DNA of 64,000 nt from assembly GCF_003261635.1 (NCBI RefSeq), contig NZ_QFXK01000039.1, positions 496,001-560,000 of the forward strand. Direction: 5' to 3'. Below are positions 57,811 to 63,029 of this stretch, one piece after another. The stretch comes from Kribbella monticola. Lineage in GTDB: Bacteria > Actinomycetota > Actinomycetes > Propionibacteriales > Kribbellaceae. Position numbers and translations under genes: made by a program. Positions within the stretch are counted from its first letter, which is position 1. Each line of letters opens with the position of its first letter. The notes under the pieces are model-generated. The model saw only the letters and a program-made list of their open reading frames with translations. It searched no databases and was not told the DNA's origin.

Positions 57811-58620
57811 GTGAGGTTTCGTACTCGGGTGGCAGCTGCCGCCATCGCCGTGCCGTTGGCACTCGGCCTGGCTGCCTGCGGTGGCGCCGACAAGAAGGAA
57901 GCCACCGGCACGCTGCCCACACCGGTCACCAGCTCGGCGCCAACCGCGCCCGCGACCGCCGCACCCCTGAAGGCCGCACCGGTCGCCCACCTGAACAGGG
58001 TCACCTTCGTGCCGGCGATGAGCGCGGCGTTCGGCAAGCAGAAGACCTGGCGGACGGTCGCCACGATGACCGCCGAAGGCCGCACGGTGATGACGATGAG
58101 CGGCTACCAGCAGGCCAAGCCGCTGGCCGCCTCGCTGGAGATGAGTGGCCTCGCGTTCCAGGGCAAGACCGCGAAGATGGTTGTGGTCGGCGGGATGCTC
58201 TACATGTCGATGCCCGGGGCAACCCCGGCCGGGAAGTTCCTGAAGGTCGACCTCAAGCACACGCCCGGAGCGGAGAACTTCAGCGAGCTGCTGAACGGTA
58301 GCGACCCGACGAAGACGTTCGAAGCATTCGGGAAGGGCCTGCAGACGGTGAAGTTCGTCCGGTCGGAGACCGTCGACGGTGTGAAGCTCGACCGCTACCA
58401 GGTGAGCGTCAACACCGCCGCGGCCCTCAAGCTCCAGGGCAAGAAGCTGCCCGCCGGCGCTCCGAAGACGCTGCCGTACACGGTCTGGATGGGCCCGGAT
58501 CACCTCGTGCACAAGATGACGTTCAACCTGCAGGGCGTCAGCATGGTGATGAAGATGAGCGAGTACAACCACCCGGTCACCATCACCGCACCTCCTGCGT
58601 CAAAGATCGTCAAGCGCTGA
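57811..58620 (+). CDS. Lipoprotein, LppX/LprG-like
   Basis: The 269-residue lipoprotein has a lipobox LALGLAACGG (Cys about residue 22). The mature domain (RTVATMTAEGRTVMTMSGYQ, VVGGMLYMSMPGATPAGKF, LDRYQVSVNTAAAL, GPDHLVHKMTFNLQGVSMVMKMSEYN) resembles the actinobacterial lipoprotein fold that carries hydrophobic ligands. No specific ligand can be given. Start GTG 57811 follows AGGAGG. Confidence 0.82.
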   Translation: MRFRTRVAAAAIAVPLALGLAACGGADKKEATGTLPTPVTSSAPTAPATAAPLKAAPVAHLNRVTFVPAMSAAFGKQKTWRTVATMTAEGRTVMTMSGYQQAKPLAASLEMSGLAFQGKTAKMVVVGGMLYMSMPGATPAGKFLKVDLKHTPGAENFSELLNGSDPTKTFEAFGKGLQTVKFVRSETVDGVKLDRYQVSVNTAAALKLQGKKLPAGAPKTLPYTVWMGPDHLVHKMTFNLQGVSMVMKMSEYNHPVTITAPPASKIVKR

Positions 58621-58622
58621 CC

Positions 58623-59423
58623 TCAGCGCAGGTAGGAGGCGCCGTTGAAGTCGAGGACGGCGCCGGTGGACCAGGTGGCGGCTGGGGAGGCGAGCCAGAC
58701 GATGGCGTCGGCGACCTCCTCGGCGGTCGCGACCCGGCCGTGCGGGCTCTGAGCCCGGATCGCGTCGCCACCCGGTCCCTCCAACAGCTGTTCGGTCATG
58801 TCGGTCGCGATGAATCCGGGCGCGATTGACGTCACGGTGATGTCATGTGGCGCCAGCGACACGGCCAGCGACTGCCCCAGGGCGTGCAGTCCCGCCTTGG
58901 CCGCTCCGTACGCCGGTACGTCCGGCTCGCCGCGATAGGCGCCGCGAGACCCGACATTCACGATGGCACCCGTTTTGACGCCATCGGCCGGCGCCACGTC
59001 GAGCATCTGCCGCGCGACGCACCAGGTGAGGTGCGCCGCCCCTTCGAGGTTCACCGCGAGCGTTCTGCGCCAGGCCGCGACCCACTCGTCGTACGACGTG
59101 TCCGCGAGCGGATGCCCGATCCGGCGGGACCCGGCGACGAGCTCCTCGACGTACAGGGCGGCGTTGTTCACGAGCACGTCGATGCGGCCGAGCGATGCGG
59201 CCGATTCTTCAACCAGGGCAGGGATTCCGGCCGGATCACCGACGTCTCCGGTGACGACGGAATGACCGTCGCCAGGCAACTGAGCCAGTACTGCGCGGGC
59301 CTCGTCGGCGGCACTGCGGCAGTGCAGCACGACCCGGTCCCCGGCTGCCGCGAATGCCTTCGCCGTGGCCGCCCCGACGCCTCGCGACGCCCCGGTGACG
59401 AGCACTCCTCTGGACACACTCAC
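58623..59423 (-). CDS. Short-chain dehydrogenase/reductase
   Basis: The 266-residue classical SDR has the cofactor motif VLVTGASRGVGAATAKAF (about residues 7-24), NNAAL, and a catalytic Ser in VNVGSRGAYRG with the Tyr-x-x-x-Lys pair in YGAAKAG. It ends with LDFNGASYLR. The substrate is unknown. The upstream frame is open 28 codons, but GAGGAG placed six nt before GTG 59423 supports this start. Convergent with the lipoprotein gene across 2 bp. Confidence 0.9.
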   Translation of the reverse strand: MSVSRGVLVTGASRGVGAATAKAFAAAGDRVVLHCRSAADEARAVLAQLPGDGHSVVTGDVGDPAGIPALVEESAASLGRIDVLVNNAALYVEELVAGSRRIGHPLADTSYDEWVAAWRRTLAVNLEGAAHLTWCVARQMLDVAPADGVKTGAIVNVGSRGAYRGEPDVPAYGAAKAGLHALGQSLAVSLAPHDITVTSIAPGFIATDMTEQLLEGPGGDAIRAQSPHGRVATAEEVADAIVWLASPAATWSTGAVLDFNGASYLR

Positions 59424-59498
59424 AACGCACTCCTCGCCTCGGTGAACCCTCATTCTGCCGCACCCGGAGCCCACCCTGACGGCATGATGGCGGCGTCG

Positions 59499-59550
59499 TG
59501 ACATCACGAGGGGTTGACAGTGACGTCATTGTGACGTCAGTATTGCGTCA
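59499..59550 (+). promoter_or_regulatory. Promoter overlaid by 11-bp-spaced TGACGTCA sites; likely leaderless
   Basis: Eight-base sites TGACATCA (59499), TGACGTCA (59521), TGACGTCA (59532) and TTGCGTCA (59543) have centres 22, 11 and 11 bp apart. A perfect -35 TTGACA (59514-59519) and a weak -10 CAGTAT (59538-59543, spacer 18) would start transcription at or next to ATG 59550. Tandem dyads at helical spacing suit a ribbon-helix-helix repressor such as the one encoded by the next gene. Confidence 0.65.
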
Positions 59551-60296
59551 TGGAACTTGACCACTACCTCGAGTCGGTCCGCCGTAGCGTGGAGAACGCC
59601 ACCGCCCTGGCCGACGACCAAACCCGCTCCGTGGCCCAGCGCCTCGGTGCCACGCTGGATGACGCGGGCCGCCTGGCCCTCATCTCAGCCCTGTCCGATG
59701 CCGCCGGTGAGATCAGCCGTGAGCTGTCGCCCGGTTCGGTCGAGCTCCGGATGGCCGGTGGCCGCCCCGAGTTCGTGGTCACGCCGGCTCCGAGCCAGCT
59801 GACCAGCTCCGACGACGACCTGGACGACGAGGCCGCCGACCGTGAGGCCGTCGCCGAGGAGATCGCCCCGGACGCCGACGAGCCGACCGCGCGGATCACG
59901 CTGCGGCTGCCGGTCTCGGTGAAGAACAAGGTGGACGAAGCCGCCGCGACCGAGGGCATCTCCTCGAACGCGTGGCTGATGCGCACCGTGATGACCGCGC
60001 TGACCGGTGACCGTGGCCGTCGTGGTGGCCCCCGGCCGCCCCGCCCGCCGCGCGCACCGCGAGGCGGATTCTTCGGCCCCGACGGCCCGCTCGGACCGGA
60101 CGGACCGCTGGGACCCGACGGAGTCTTCGGCCCGGACGGTGTGTTCGGACCTGACGGCCCGTTCGGACCCGACGGCGTCTTCGGCGAGCGGGACAAGCGC
60201 GGTGACCGCGACCGGCGGCGCGAAGGCCGCCGGGACAACCACGGACGCCGCGGTGGACGCGGACCGGGACAGCAGATGACGGGGTGGGCACAGTGA
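59550..60296 (+). CDS. Ribbon-helix-helix protein with collagen-like GPDG repeats
   Basis: This 248-residue protein has an alpha-helical N-terminal domain (about 1-80) and an acidic linker (DDDLDDEAADREAVAEEIAPDAD). The ribbon-helix-helix domain at about 113-152 (ARITLRLPVSVKNKVDEAAATEGISSNAWLMRTVM) is of the HicB/CopG kind. A run of six GPDGxx units, Gly at every third position (residues 176-212, 60075-60185), leads into a very basic Arg/Gly tail. The RHH strand should bind the tandem sites upstream (autoregulation, inference). The stop overlaps the DUF4097 gene (GTGA). Confidence 0.8.
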   Translation: MELDHYLESVRRSVENATALADDQTRSVAQRLGATLDDAGRLALISALSDAAGEISRELSPGSVELRMAGGRPEFVVTPAPSQLTSSDDDLDDEAADREAVAEEIAPDADEPTARITLRLPVSVKNKVDEAAATEGISSNAWLMRTVMTALTGDRGRRGGPRPPRPPRAPRGGFFGPDGPLGPDGPLGPDGVFGPDGVFGPDGPFGPDGVFGERDKRGDRDRRREGRRDNHGRRGGRGPGQQMTGWAQ

Positions 60297-61123
60297 GCGG
60301 CTTTCATTCGCAGGTGGTCGCCGAGCCGGGCGAGATCGACAGCGTCCGGATCGACATCGGCGCCGGCCTGGTCGAGATCCTCCCGGTCGACGGCGACAAG
60401 ACCCTGGTGTCGGTGGATGCCGACGAAGGCGACGAGGAGAGCGTCTGGTTCGAGGTCGTCAACAGCGAAGTGGTCGTCGAGGCGCCCCGCAACGTCCGGC
60501 GCGGCCCGGAGATCCGGGTCCGGATCCAGACCCCGGAGCAGTTGATCACCCGAATCAAGACCGGCTCGGGCGACATCATCGCCAGCACCACGCTGGGCGA
60601 GTCGCGGCTGTCGACCGGATCCGGCGAGATCCAGCTCGACCGGGTCGAGGGCAGCCTCGGCGCGAACACCGGCAGCGGCGAGCTCCGGGTCCGGTACGCC
60701 GGTGGCCCGGTCCGCGCCAAGACCGGCTCCGGCGCGATCGACATCGGCGAGGCCGCCGACTCCCTCGGCCTCAGCACCGGCTCGGGCGACATCCGGATCG
60801 GCGACGCCGCGGGTCCGACCACCGTCAAGGTCGGCTCCGGTGACATCACCATCGAGCGGATCCGCGACCACTCGGTCGCCACCTCCGGCTCCGGTGACGT
60901 CACGGTCGAGCTCGCCGACGGGCCGAGCGTCCGGGCCGAGACGGCCCGCGGCGACGTACACATCGGCGTACCGGACGGCGTACCGACCTATCTGGATCTG
61001 AAGACGGTCACCGGCGAGATCCGGTGCGATCTGGAAGCCGGCGAGCGGCCGGCCGAGGGCGAGCGCTCGCTGGTCCTGCGGGCCCGCACCGTCTCCGGCG
61101 ACATCACCGTCGTCCGGGTCTGA
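60293..61123 (+). CDS. DUF4097-family beta-solenoid protein
   Basis: The 276-residue protein (GTG 60293, overlapping the preceding stop) is built of repeated short strands with TGSGDI/TGSGEI turns: KTGSGDIIAS, LSTGSGEIQL, ANTGSGELRV, KTGSGAIDIG, LSTGSGDIRIG, VGSGDITIE, TSGSGDVTVE and TVTGEIRCD. This is characteristic of DUF4097 adhesin-like solenoids. There is no signal peptide or membrane helix, so it is probably cytosolic. Function unknown; pairing with an RHH protein suggests a conserved two-gene module. Confidence 0.85.
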   Translation: MSGFHSQVVAEPGEIDSVRIDIGAGLVEILPVDGDKTLVSVDADEGDEESVWFEVVNSEVVVEAPRNVRRGPEIRVRIQTPEQLITRIKTGSGDIIASTTLGESRLSTGSGEIQLDRVEGSLGANTGSGELRVRYAGGPVRAKTGSGAIDIGEAADSLGLSTGSGDIRIGDAAGPTTVKVGSGDITIERIRDHSVATSGSGDVTVELADGPSVRAETARGDVHIGVPDGVPTYLDLKTVTGEIRCDLEAGERPAEGERSLVLRARTVSGDITVVRV

Positions 61124-61166
61124 ACCACCACCCACCCAGCAAACACCCTGTGAAGGAGAAACCACC

Positions 61167-61385
61167 ATGATCACCGAACACCAAGAGGTCGCCCGCCACC
61201 GGGTCGCCGAGCAGATCAGGACCGCCGAACTACGGGCCCTACGCAACGAACGGCGCGACGCGGTGCGGGCCGAGGGCGAATCCGCCGGTCCGCGACACGA
61301 GCTCGCCGGAGTACTGCGCCGGCTGGCCGACCGGCTCGAACCGCAGCCCCGCCACCGTCGTACCGGCCTGTCCGTGGTGCGGTGA
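61167..61385 (+). CDS. Small basic helical protein
   Basis: This 72-residue, arginine-rich, largely helical protein has the segments QEVARHRVAEQIRTAELRAL and HELAGVLRRLADRLE. A good ribosome-binding site (GAAGGAG) precedes ATG 61167. It follows the DUF4097 gene after 43 nt and probably belongs to the same transcript. No family recognised. Confidence 0.65.
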   Translation: MITEHQEVARHRVAEQIRTAELRALRNERRDAVRAEGESAGPRHELAGVLRRLADRLEPQPRHRRTGLSVVR

Positions 61386-61514: not shown

Positions 61515-63029
61515 ATGGTGTTGCGTTCACTGGCCGCCGCCACCGCCGCAGTCGTTCTGCTGGCCGGTTGCAGTGGGGGTGACGACAAATCCACCGACAG
61601 CTCGAAGGACGGCGCGAGCCAGACCCCCGGTACGCCGAGTGCGCCGGCCCTGACGCCGTACGACCCGCCGAAGTCCTTCGAAGCCACCTACGCATACTCC
61701 CTGCCCGAGGTGACGGGGCACAGCTCGTTCAAGCCCGAGGTCGCCATGGTCGGCTCGACCGCCGTGGCGAACAGCCTCCGCGGTGTCGATGGCCAGAACC
61801 TCGCCGGGCCGGCCAAGCCCTGGCAGACGCTGGCCACCGAGACCACCGACGGCAGCGTGGTGATCAACGACGCGTCGGTCCCGGTCGCCGTACAACTCAA
61901 CGGGAAGCCGGCCGTCGCGGTCGCCTACTACCAGCGGGTCAAGGGCGCCGGCACGGCGAAGCCAGGAGTCTCGGTGCTGTTCCGCTGGCTCGACCCGGCC
62001 GACGGCAAGCCGTTGTCTGAGGCAACCTTCGACGTGACGGCACTGCTCGGCGACGCCGAGGTGAACAGCGGCCTGCCCGGCGGCTTCACCAACCTGACCT
62101 TCGATCCGGCCACCGGGCAGGTGGCGGTCGGGGTCTCGCCGGCCAGCATGATCGGCGCCAAGTCCGGCATCGTCACCGTGATCGCCGATCCGGCTACCAA
62201 GAAGGCCGTCGGCCTGCCGTTCATGCGGCCGGCCGGGCTCAGCAAGGGCGTCCTGGTCGGCACACAGGGCAAGGAGAACACGCGGCGCACGGTCGCTCTC
62301 GTCGATGCCGCCACCGGTCGCATCACCAAGTCGGGTCTGCTGCCCGGGCTGGAAGGGCTGACCCCGACCGGCGCCAACGGCAGCAAATACGTCTACCTGT
62401 ACGGCCAGAAGTACGACAAGAGCATCGGATTCGCCGGTGACTACGTCGGCTACTTCTACGCTGTCGACCCGGCCAGCGGTGCCGTCGTCCAAACCAAGAC
62501 AGCCGTGAAGAAGACGCAGTACCTGCAGAACTACAGCTGCTTCGCCGACGGCCAGAAGACGGTTGTCTGCACAGCCGATCAGCCCGAGGCAGCCGAGGCG
62601 GAGATCGTCGGTTTCGACGACACGACCGGGAAGAAGACCTGGGGCTTCACCGAGGCGAGCGCAGGCCGGGTGGTGCCGCAGGTGACCGCGGCGTTCCACG
62701 GCGTCCTCTACGCCAGCGCCGAGACAAAGCCGGTCCTGCTGAACGCGCTGACCGGCCAGGACATCCCCACTCCGACGCCGACCGTCCCGACCGGCGCGGA
62801 CACCGCCGGGCCGACCGGCACACCTGGCGAGACTCCGAGCGAGGACCCGACACCGACCGACAGCAGCTCGCCGTCCGGGGGTAGCTCCGGCGCCCCCGTT
62901 GCTGCCCAACCGGCCAACCAACTCCAGTCGCCGCAGAGCGTCTCCGAATACGGTGGCGTCTATCTAGCCGAGCCGGAGCTGAGCGACGACTTCAGCGGCA
63001 CCCTGCAGATCCTGAAGGCGGTCGGCTGA
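61515..63029 (+). CDS. Lipoprotein with PQQ-like beta-propeller character
   Basis: The 504-residue lipoprotein has a lipobox VVLLAGCSGG (Cys about residue 19). A Ser/Thr/Asp linker leads to repeated strands such as VVINDASVPVAVQLNGKPAVAVAYYQ, LTFDPATGQVAVGV and VGYFYAVDPASGAVVQTK, recalling a PQQ/WD-like propeller. A Pro/Thr/Ser-rich tract (about 415-460, TPTPTVPTGADTAGPTGTPG) precedes the C-terminal LAEPELSDDFSGTLQILKAVG. Function unknown. The next gene is a paralogue overlapping by one base (TGATG). Confidence 0.8.
   Translation: MVLRSLAAATAAVVLLAGCSGGDDKSTDSSKDGASQTPGTPSAPALTPYDPPKSFEATYAYSLPEVTGHSSFKPEVAMVGSTAVANSLRGVDGQNLAGPAKPWQTLATETTDGSVVINDASVPVAVQLNGKPAVAVAYYQRVKGAGTAKPGVSVLFRWLDPADGKPLSEATFDVTALLGDAEVNSGLPGGFTNLTFDPATGQVAVGVSPASMIGAKSGIVTVIADPATKKAVGLPFMRPAGLSKGVLVGTQGKENTRRTVALVDAATGRITKSGLLPGLEGLTPTGANGSKYVYLYGQKYDKSIGFAGDYVGYFYAVDPASGAVVQTKTAVKKTQYLQNYSCFADGQKTVVCTADQPEAAEAEIVGFDDTTGKKTWGFTEASAGRVVPQVTAAFHGVLYASAETKPVLLNALTGQDIPTPTPTVPTGADTAGPTGTPGETPSEDPTPTDSSSPSGGSSGAPVAAQPANQLQSPQSVSEYGGVYLAEPELSDDFSGTLQILKAVG

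Follow-up and report, generated by a model that had tools for sequence, protein, structure and literature searches.

Layout of the locus

The stretch examined here raises the question of what controls a small actinobacterial operon whose promoter is lined with short palindromes, and whether the RHH protein encoded by its first gene could be the factor that reads them. The window, that is, the whole stretch analysed, comprises 64,000 nucleotides of the 8.0-Mb genome of Kribbella monticola (G000). On its forward strand, positions 59550-61385 hold three genes, encoding an RHH protein, a DUF4097 (Toastrack) protein and a small Arg-rich protein, and a gene for an SDR-family oxidoreductase lies divergently on the other strand:

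58623-59507, minus strand: divergent SDR-family oxidoreductase gene, given as the longest-start open reading frame (PF13561, E 2.3e-47)
59550-60296, plus strand: RHH gene, an open reading frame of 248 aa with its ATG at 59550
60293-61123, plus strand: DUF4097 (Toastrack) gene with a GTG start (PF13349, E 1.8e-16)
61167-61385, plus strand: gene of the small Arg-rich protein, 72 aa

An earlier note on this DNA had described a four-base overlap of the first two genes. The overlap is real, since the RHH stop and the DUF4097 start share the GTGA at 60293-60296, and the coordinates in that note proved correct when the sequence was reread. The true start of the SDR gene is probably near 59423. The 72-aa protein had no family match over cut-off; it gave 30 matches among the loci searched, all of them Kribbella-type, and its C-terminal end, RRTGLSVVR, is identical among the matches listed. 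The module is flanked by two lipoprotein-like genes (57811-58620 and 61515-63029), whose matches to LppX_LprAFG and PQQ_2 were weak and below cut-off. A second DUF4097 gene is located about 22 kb past the window end (G000:C86:581899-582543) and outscores the studied DUF4097 against PF13349.

An octamer ladder across the promoter

The elements upstream of the RHH gene are as follows, the octamers being given without strand:

59477-59484: further rung TGACGGCA (at -73), lying 22 bp upstream of the following octamer
59499-59506: octamer TGACATCA (rung at -51), read from the sequence and recurrent near -51
59514-59519, plus strand: -35 element TTGACA, which sits in the gap of the ladder
59521-59528: core octamer O1, TGACGTCA
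59532-59539: core octamer O2, TGACGTCA
59538-59543, plus strand: -10 element CAGTAT, to which O2 contributes its end and O3 its start
59543-59550: octamer O3, TTGCGTCA, overlapping the start codon

The octamers beginning at 59499, 59521, 59532 and 59543 are indeed 22, 11 and 11 bp apart, as had been claimed, and the -35 element is a perfect TTGACA, again in agreement with the previous reading. With the rung at 59477, which the earlier note lacked, the whole ladder is in 11-bp register. CAGTAT occupies -12 to -7 and is separated from TTGACA by a spacer of 18 bp; therefore, a transcription start at the A of the ATG is plausible. CAGTAT is far from TATAAT, and a generic sigma-70 and terminator scan called no promoter at the RHH locus.

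Counted singly, octamers are no more frequent in the window than expected (25 with at most one mismatch versus 32.35 expected), and the evidence therefore lies in the phased cluster and its conservation. The genome contains two perfect tandem arrays, both at the RHH locus, and none was found elsewhere in the genome. Considering the phased cluster, its conservation and the occurrence of just two perfect tandem arrays in the genome, we rejected the view that the octamers are a chance or generic genome motif.

Conservation of the promoter design

The RHH family was sought in several samples of genomes, with search cut-offs that differ between samples. It turned up in 138 of 394 genomes sampled from the class, in 31 of 396 phylum genomes (single-sequence query) and in 33 of 39 near relatives, where G036 matches solely in the collagen-like tract. 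The corresponding counts were 9/24 and 14/66 for genomes of another and of a third class, 20/35 for one family and 57/81 for one order. We assembled 237 loci, of which 184 unique ones were retained after removal of duplicates, loci with less than 60 bp upstream and six start calls that were off by more than one codon.

Both core octamers, each with at least 7 of 8 letters of a consensus chosen after inspecting the sequences, precede the start codon in 147 of the 184 unique loci of Actinomycetota; the array is thus conserved in orthologous loci, a point on which the earlier note had made its proposal depend. In 183 loci, the density of perfect octamers is 0.0194 per bp from -150 to +8 and 0.00038 per bp from +100 to +1100. 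The octamers peak near -73, -62, -51, -29, -18 and -7, skipping the rung around -40, where the -35 element falls, and 93 of the 183 loci have a perfect octamer at -7. Seven loci, deep-branching ones among them, lack a start-adjacent array and have it instead 88-193 bp before the called start.

The remaining promoter elements were compared in the 130 non-Kribbella promoters with a good O2, which bear 42 family labels. TTG was present in the -35 zone of 124 (TTGAC in 47), 127 had CAnnnT at -12 to -7, and none of the 130 had an SD-like motif. This conservation of the promoter gives strong comparative support to the leaderless start that had been proposed for the window.

Residue 117 and the operator type

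The strand of the RHH domain has the pattern R-x-X-L-R, in which X is residue 117 of the window protein:

59898-59900, plus strand: codon of Thr117, the proposed specificity residue (normalised mutual information 1.0, 145 loci)

Octamers of the form TGGYRCCA accompany Asn at this position, and octamers of the form TGAYRTCA accompany Thr or Ser. Among the 184 loci, those with Asn had 55 GC-type, 6 mixed, 1 unscored and no AT-type operators, and those with Thr or Ser had 90 AT-type, 19 mixed, 13 unscored and no GC-type operators. Residue 117 predicts the operator type in 145/145 classifiable loci, a test that leaves out the 39 of 184 loci with mixed (25) or unscored (14) operators. The normalised mutual information with operator type was 1.0 for column 117 and 0.62 for the next of the 165 columns, and the family-by-residue groups with a clear class were concordant in 46/46 cases.

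On the best tree, calculated with the strand columns excluded, one reconstruction placed 8 residue changes and 8 operator changes on 8 shared branches. When all rows were used, including mixed and misread ones, the fewest residue changes came to 10 (179 rows, five Asn-type loci being absent). The tree is poorly supported and yields 1 independent pair on starred branches and 8 on all branches. With that single pair on the starred branches the sign test is powerless, and given the poor support of the tree, the claim rests on the contrast between columns and on the agreement within families. Two genomes have one Thr/TGAYRTCA and one Asn/TGGYRCCA paralogue each (L167 and L168 in G037; L146 and L147 in G639), and by their sequences these paralogues are natural orthogonal pairs. 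The residue-operator rule also fits three named Streptomyces plasmid loci that are not part of the 184.

In the family profile, residue 117 aligns with Asn11 of Arc, and Gln9, Asn11 and Arg13 of Arc contact bases in the crystal structure (PMC12645479). Since residue 117 tracks the operator type, the comparison strongly suggests that the RHH protein binds its own promoter. The code further predicts that one amino-acid change, T117N, would switch the preference from TGACGTCA to TGGCGCCA. The strand RTTLR was accompanied by the asymmetric pair TGACACCA/TGGTGTCA in 5/5 loci (L143, L144, L145, L153 and L030), which hints that residue 116 also affects the site.

Palindromes resembling TGACGTCA are common to several types of regulator, and on that ground the ladder might be bound by a different regulator while the RHH protein acts elsewhere. 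However, the ladder covaries perfectly with one residue of the RHH strand and not with the other columns, and the sole two perfect tandem arrays of the genome are both at the RHH locus. We give this explanation hardly any credence and retain binding by the RHH protein.

An operator inside the SDR gene

The second of the two arrays had escaped the earlier note:

58827-58845, strand not assigned: auxiliary operator, the tandem TGACGTCA-cgg-TGATGTCA, within the divergent SDR gene

It is present beside 35 of 36 unique Kribbella promoters. Among the 157 windows scored for synonymous conservation in 31 SDR genes, the one with the operator codons comes first, with a value of 0.994 (mean over 185 SDR codons, 0.750). 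The operator Ser codon is TCA in 30 of the 31 genes; TCA makes up 63 of the 526 Ser codons of these genes overall, operator ones included. Given this top-ranked synonymous conservation, the operator DNA itself seems to be under selection.

Among 38 Kribbella genomes, 27 contained exactly two tandem arrays, 10 contained more and 1 contained one; the two arrays are not always the promoter and the SDR site (e.g. in G886). A backwards-read control pattern gave 21 forward hits over the 38 genomes, about 0.55 each, so the third or fourth arrays in 10 of the 38 may be due to chance.

In the intergenic region, ATTCTGCC at 59452-59459 is conserved as ATT[CG]TGCC in 33 of 36 Kribbella promoters. Read on the opposite strand, GGCAGAAT could be the -10 element of the SDR gene, and the ladder may serve both the RHH and the SDR promoters.

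The distances from the operator to the promoter array cluster at 649, 660.5, 672, 683, 694 and 789 bp. They lie near whole helical turns (p 0.025 for six clusters, chosen post hoc), and the best-fitting period over all distances is 11.65 bp, not 10.5. Part of the phasing is explained by gain and loss of 11-bp array units; in L254 and the window locus, changes on either side of ATT[CG]TGCC that are not multiples themselves sum to 11 and 22. Whole-turn distances would suit a site that loops to the promoter. The site also stands in the path of SDR transcription, and the divergent ATT[CG]TGCC motif is a possible SDR -10, which would fit an operator acting as a transcription roadblock for SDR and not as a looping partner. 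A roadblock needs no whole-turn distances, yet such distances are seen, with the post hoc p value just given. We consider the roadblock a realistic option, not far short of an even chance, and keep looping in the model described below.

Architecture of the RHH protein

The RHH protein consists of a helical N-domain with a beta-hairpin (residues 1-78), an Arc-like RHH domain (about 115-153), the GPDG tract (176-212) and a C-terminal TGWAQ. In the structure model, helices 122-135 and 139-153 follow the strand motif. Single-sequence Pfam RHH matches were below their cut-offs. The family profile found Arc chains at E values from 1.7e-4 (mutant Arc) to 0.043, with the wild-type entry at 0.034, and found Mnt at E 3e-4, in keeping with the RHH domain that the first protein had been said to have. 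Given the model helices and the profile E value of 1.7e-4, the protein has the strand-helix-helix unit of the MetJ/Arc superfamily. A Foldseek search with the RHH model returned an Arc co-crystal with a probability of 0.98 but an E value of 1.1; it gave nothing at E <=0.001 and no clear match for the N-domain.

All six GPDGxx units reported earlier are found in the 248-aa protein. The tract lies between the RHH domain and the tail, is modelled mostly with low confidence and scores 13.8 bits against Pfam Collagen, for which the cut-off is 27.2. Of the 184 loci, 32 have eight or more Gxx triplets in a row, namely 31 Kribbella-type loci and L175 (family f2), and the other aligned relatives have a short linker alone between the RHH domain and the tail. 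From this distribution, we read the tract as a linker insertion specific to the Kribbella lineage, and we rejected it as the central feature of the system; the earlier note had remarked on its odd combination with an RHH domain. No combination of collagen and RHH was found in the open-licence PMC literature. The C-terminal tail is of the TGW class in 148 of the 184 loci, ends in GY or GF in 15 and is of another kind in 21. In Streptomyces sp. SID13031 (L032), the RHH gene (89% identity), the promoter and the SDR operator are all of Kribbella type, and the genome is possibly misnamed.

The DUF4097 partner and neighbouring genes

Of 180 loci, 176 have a DUF4097 gene downstream in the same orientation, and in 170 of these it lies within 250 bp, judged by the start of the profile match; 4 of the 184 loci, with less than 700 bp downstream, were left out. 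This profile was seeded with the DUF4097 protein encoded in the window, and Pfam was run on one other member, L171. The co-occurrence of the two genes, which the earlier note had put forward for checking, thus extends across actinomycetes. The window protein matches PF13349 with 60.7 bits against a cut-off of 22.9. Its model is a beta-solenoid (mean pLDDT 82.7, mostly confident from about residue 80), for which the top PDB hits, 3lyc and 4opw, are weak (E about 0.01, TM 0.3-0.4).

The DUF4097-less loci (L073, L079, L154 and L157) all belong to family f7 and all lack the TGW tail, and in two of these four genomes there is no DUF4097 match anywhere. Nine further tail-less loci are not DUF4097-less, and the four that are may reflect a single event. 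Because all four DUF4097-less loci are without the tail, the tail is a candidate docking site for DUF4097, and we put docking of the Toastrack on it at about even chances. In L210, RHH and DUF4097 form one 458-codon frame. This frame, possibly a fusion or a frameshift, does not count towards the evidence.

The antitoxin-like gene order and overlap would also suit a toxin-antitoxin system, in which the RHH protein would be a HicB/RelB-type antitoxin, DUF4097 the toxin and the ladder a case of ordinary toxin-antitoxin autoregulation. Antitoxin RHH folds are among the structural matches of the RHH model, and 2 of 20 plasmid relatives listed carry the label 'toxin-antitoxin system HicB family antitoxin'. 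However, DUF4097 is a beta-solenoid Toastrack with no toxin among its best structural matches, all of which are weak, and PADLOC gave no match for DUF4097 or the small protein and a weak ZorA match for RHH (E 0.036). Moreover, the four loci above have an RHH gene without DUF4097 downstream, two of them in genomes without a DUF4097 match. A HicAB system was rejected, given a HicB score of 16.5 bits against 21, a DUF4097 gene as the neighbour and no HicA among the six window proteins. Collectively, these points make a toxin-antitoxin pair highly improbable, and we regard the RHH protein as a regulator paired with a Toastrack.

The genes after DUF4097 differ between lineages. An ABC ATPase was present in 3 of the 7 loci with scanned neighbours (L171, L118 and L170), and a permease in L118. 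A P450 and a ferredoxin lie beside the pair in S. lunaelactis pSLUN1 and in Streptomyces sp. NBC_00212, and Streptomyces sp. SAT1 has ABC genes near an NRPS. In pSLUN1 the pair is lun1-lun2 of the lunaemycin cluster, both of which are entered as unknown (PMC9866976).

Proposed mechanism

Comparison of the loci establishes the array, the covariation of residue and operator, the constraint on the intragenic site and the gene pairing. Binding of the RHH protein to its own operators is the best supported step of the mechanism built on them, and on this comparative evidence we consider self-binding together with autorepression very probable. The dedicated autoregulated module proposed in the earlier note is, at the level of sequence, well supported by the array, the covariation and the genome-unique tandem arrays.

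RHH dimers would bind octamers one helical turn apart via an Arc-like two-stranded sheet, with residue 117 reading base pairs 3 and 6 of each octamer, and would be arrayed along a single face of the helix, covering the -35 and -10 elements as well as the leaderless start codon. With the ladder occupied, RNA polymerase would be denied access to the RHH-DUF4097 operon and probably to the SDR promoter as well, and the operator in the Kribbella SDR gene probably aids by looping or by blocking SDR transcription. The Toastrack, co-translated via the overlap, would dock on the TGW tail of the RHH protein and, once docked, relieve or tune the repression, which would control the lineage-variable cargo genes. 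We infer repression as the outcome, the looping, the docking and role of the Toastrack, and the signal.

Instead of acting as an anti-repressor, the Toastrack could retain the RHH protein on the DNA, as a co-repressor or as an anchor close to the membrane. Toxin-antitoxin partners can be co-repressors, as described for RelE (PMC2812701), and Toastrack has been proposed as a sub-membrane assembly platform (PMC11237479). We regard this variant as tentative, clearly below an even chance, and keep the Toastrack as the element that would relieve repression. In the widest form of the model, which we think unlikely, the module would be a phylum-wide portable switch: the Toastrack would sense a drug-like or membrane signal and strip the RHH protein from the looped ladder via the TGW tail, the cargo (DrrA-like ABC pump, P450, SDR, small proteins) would be swapped freely, and the one-residue code would keep co-resident copies orthogonal.

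Relation to known systems

Among the closest known systems are Arc and Mnt of phage P22, with whose strand motif the present one aligns residue for residue (RitLR with QFNLR); Arc binds two adjacent major grooves (PMC12645479). Unlike Arc and Mnt, the present RHH protein is encoded on actinomycete chromosomes, shares its operon with a Toastrack and is extended by a helical N-domain and by a TGW tail at the C-terminus; its ladder also overlaps a start codon that is probably leaderless. The met boxes of MetJ are contiguous tandem 8-bp palindromes read by an RHH sheet. Tandem 8-bp palindromes and an RHH sheet are shared with the system described here, whereas here 3-bp spacers set the octamers at 11-bp intervals.

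The DUF4097 domain recalls LiaG of the Lia system and PSP, and the LiaG model scored 45.8 bits versus its cut-off of 285. No PspA, two-component or LiaI-LiaF protein was found among the six window proteins and ten neighbour proteins (seven loci). The envelope or polymer-associated stress role that the earlier note suggested for the module would rest on the Toastrack associations published in PMC11237479. The RHH-Toastrack pairing is already in print in the same article, which devotes one sentence to an actinobacterial operon of an RHH factor, a Toastrack, an ABC ATPase and a permease, drawn by analogy with a GntR operon having a membrane-anchored Toastrack. That account of the operon does not mention operators, and the ABC genes it names are present here in 3 of the 7 scanned loci. 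No study of the ladder, the residue code or the intragenic operator was among the matches listed from the open-licence PMC literature.

RHH loci offer natural orthogonal repressor-promoter parts and a handle on the role of the Toastrack beside antibiotic gene clusters. The pair is common in actinomycetes, yet its annotated plasmid relatives are called hypothetical protein or HicB antitoxin.
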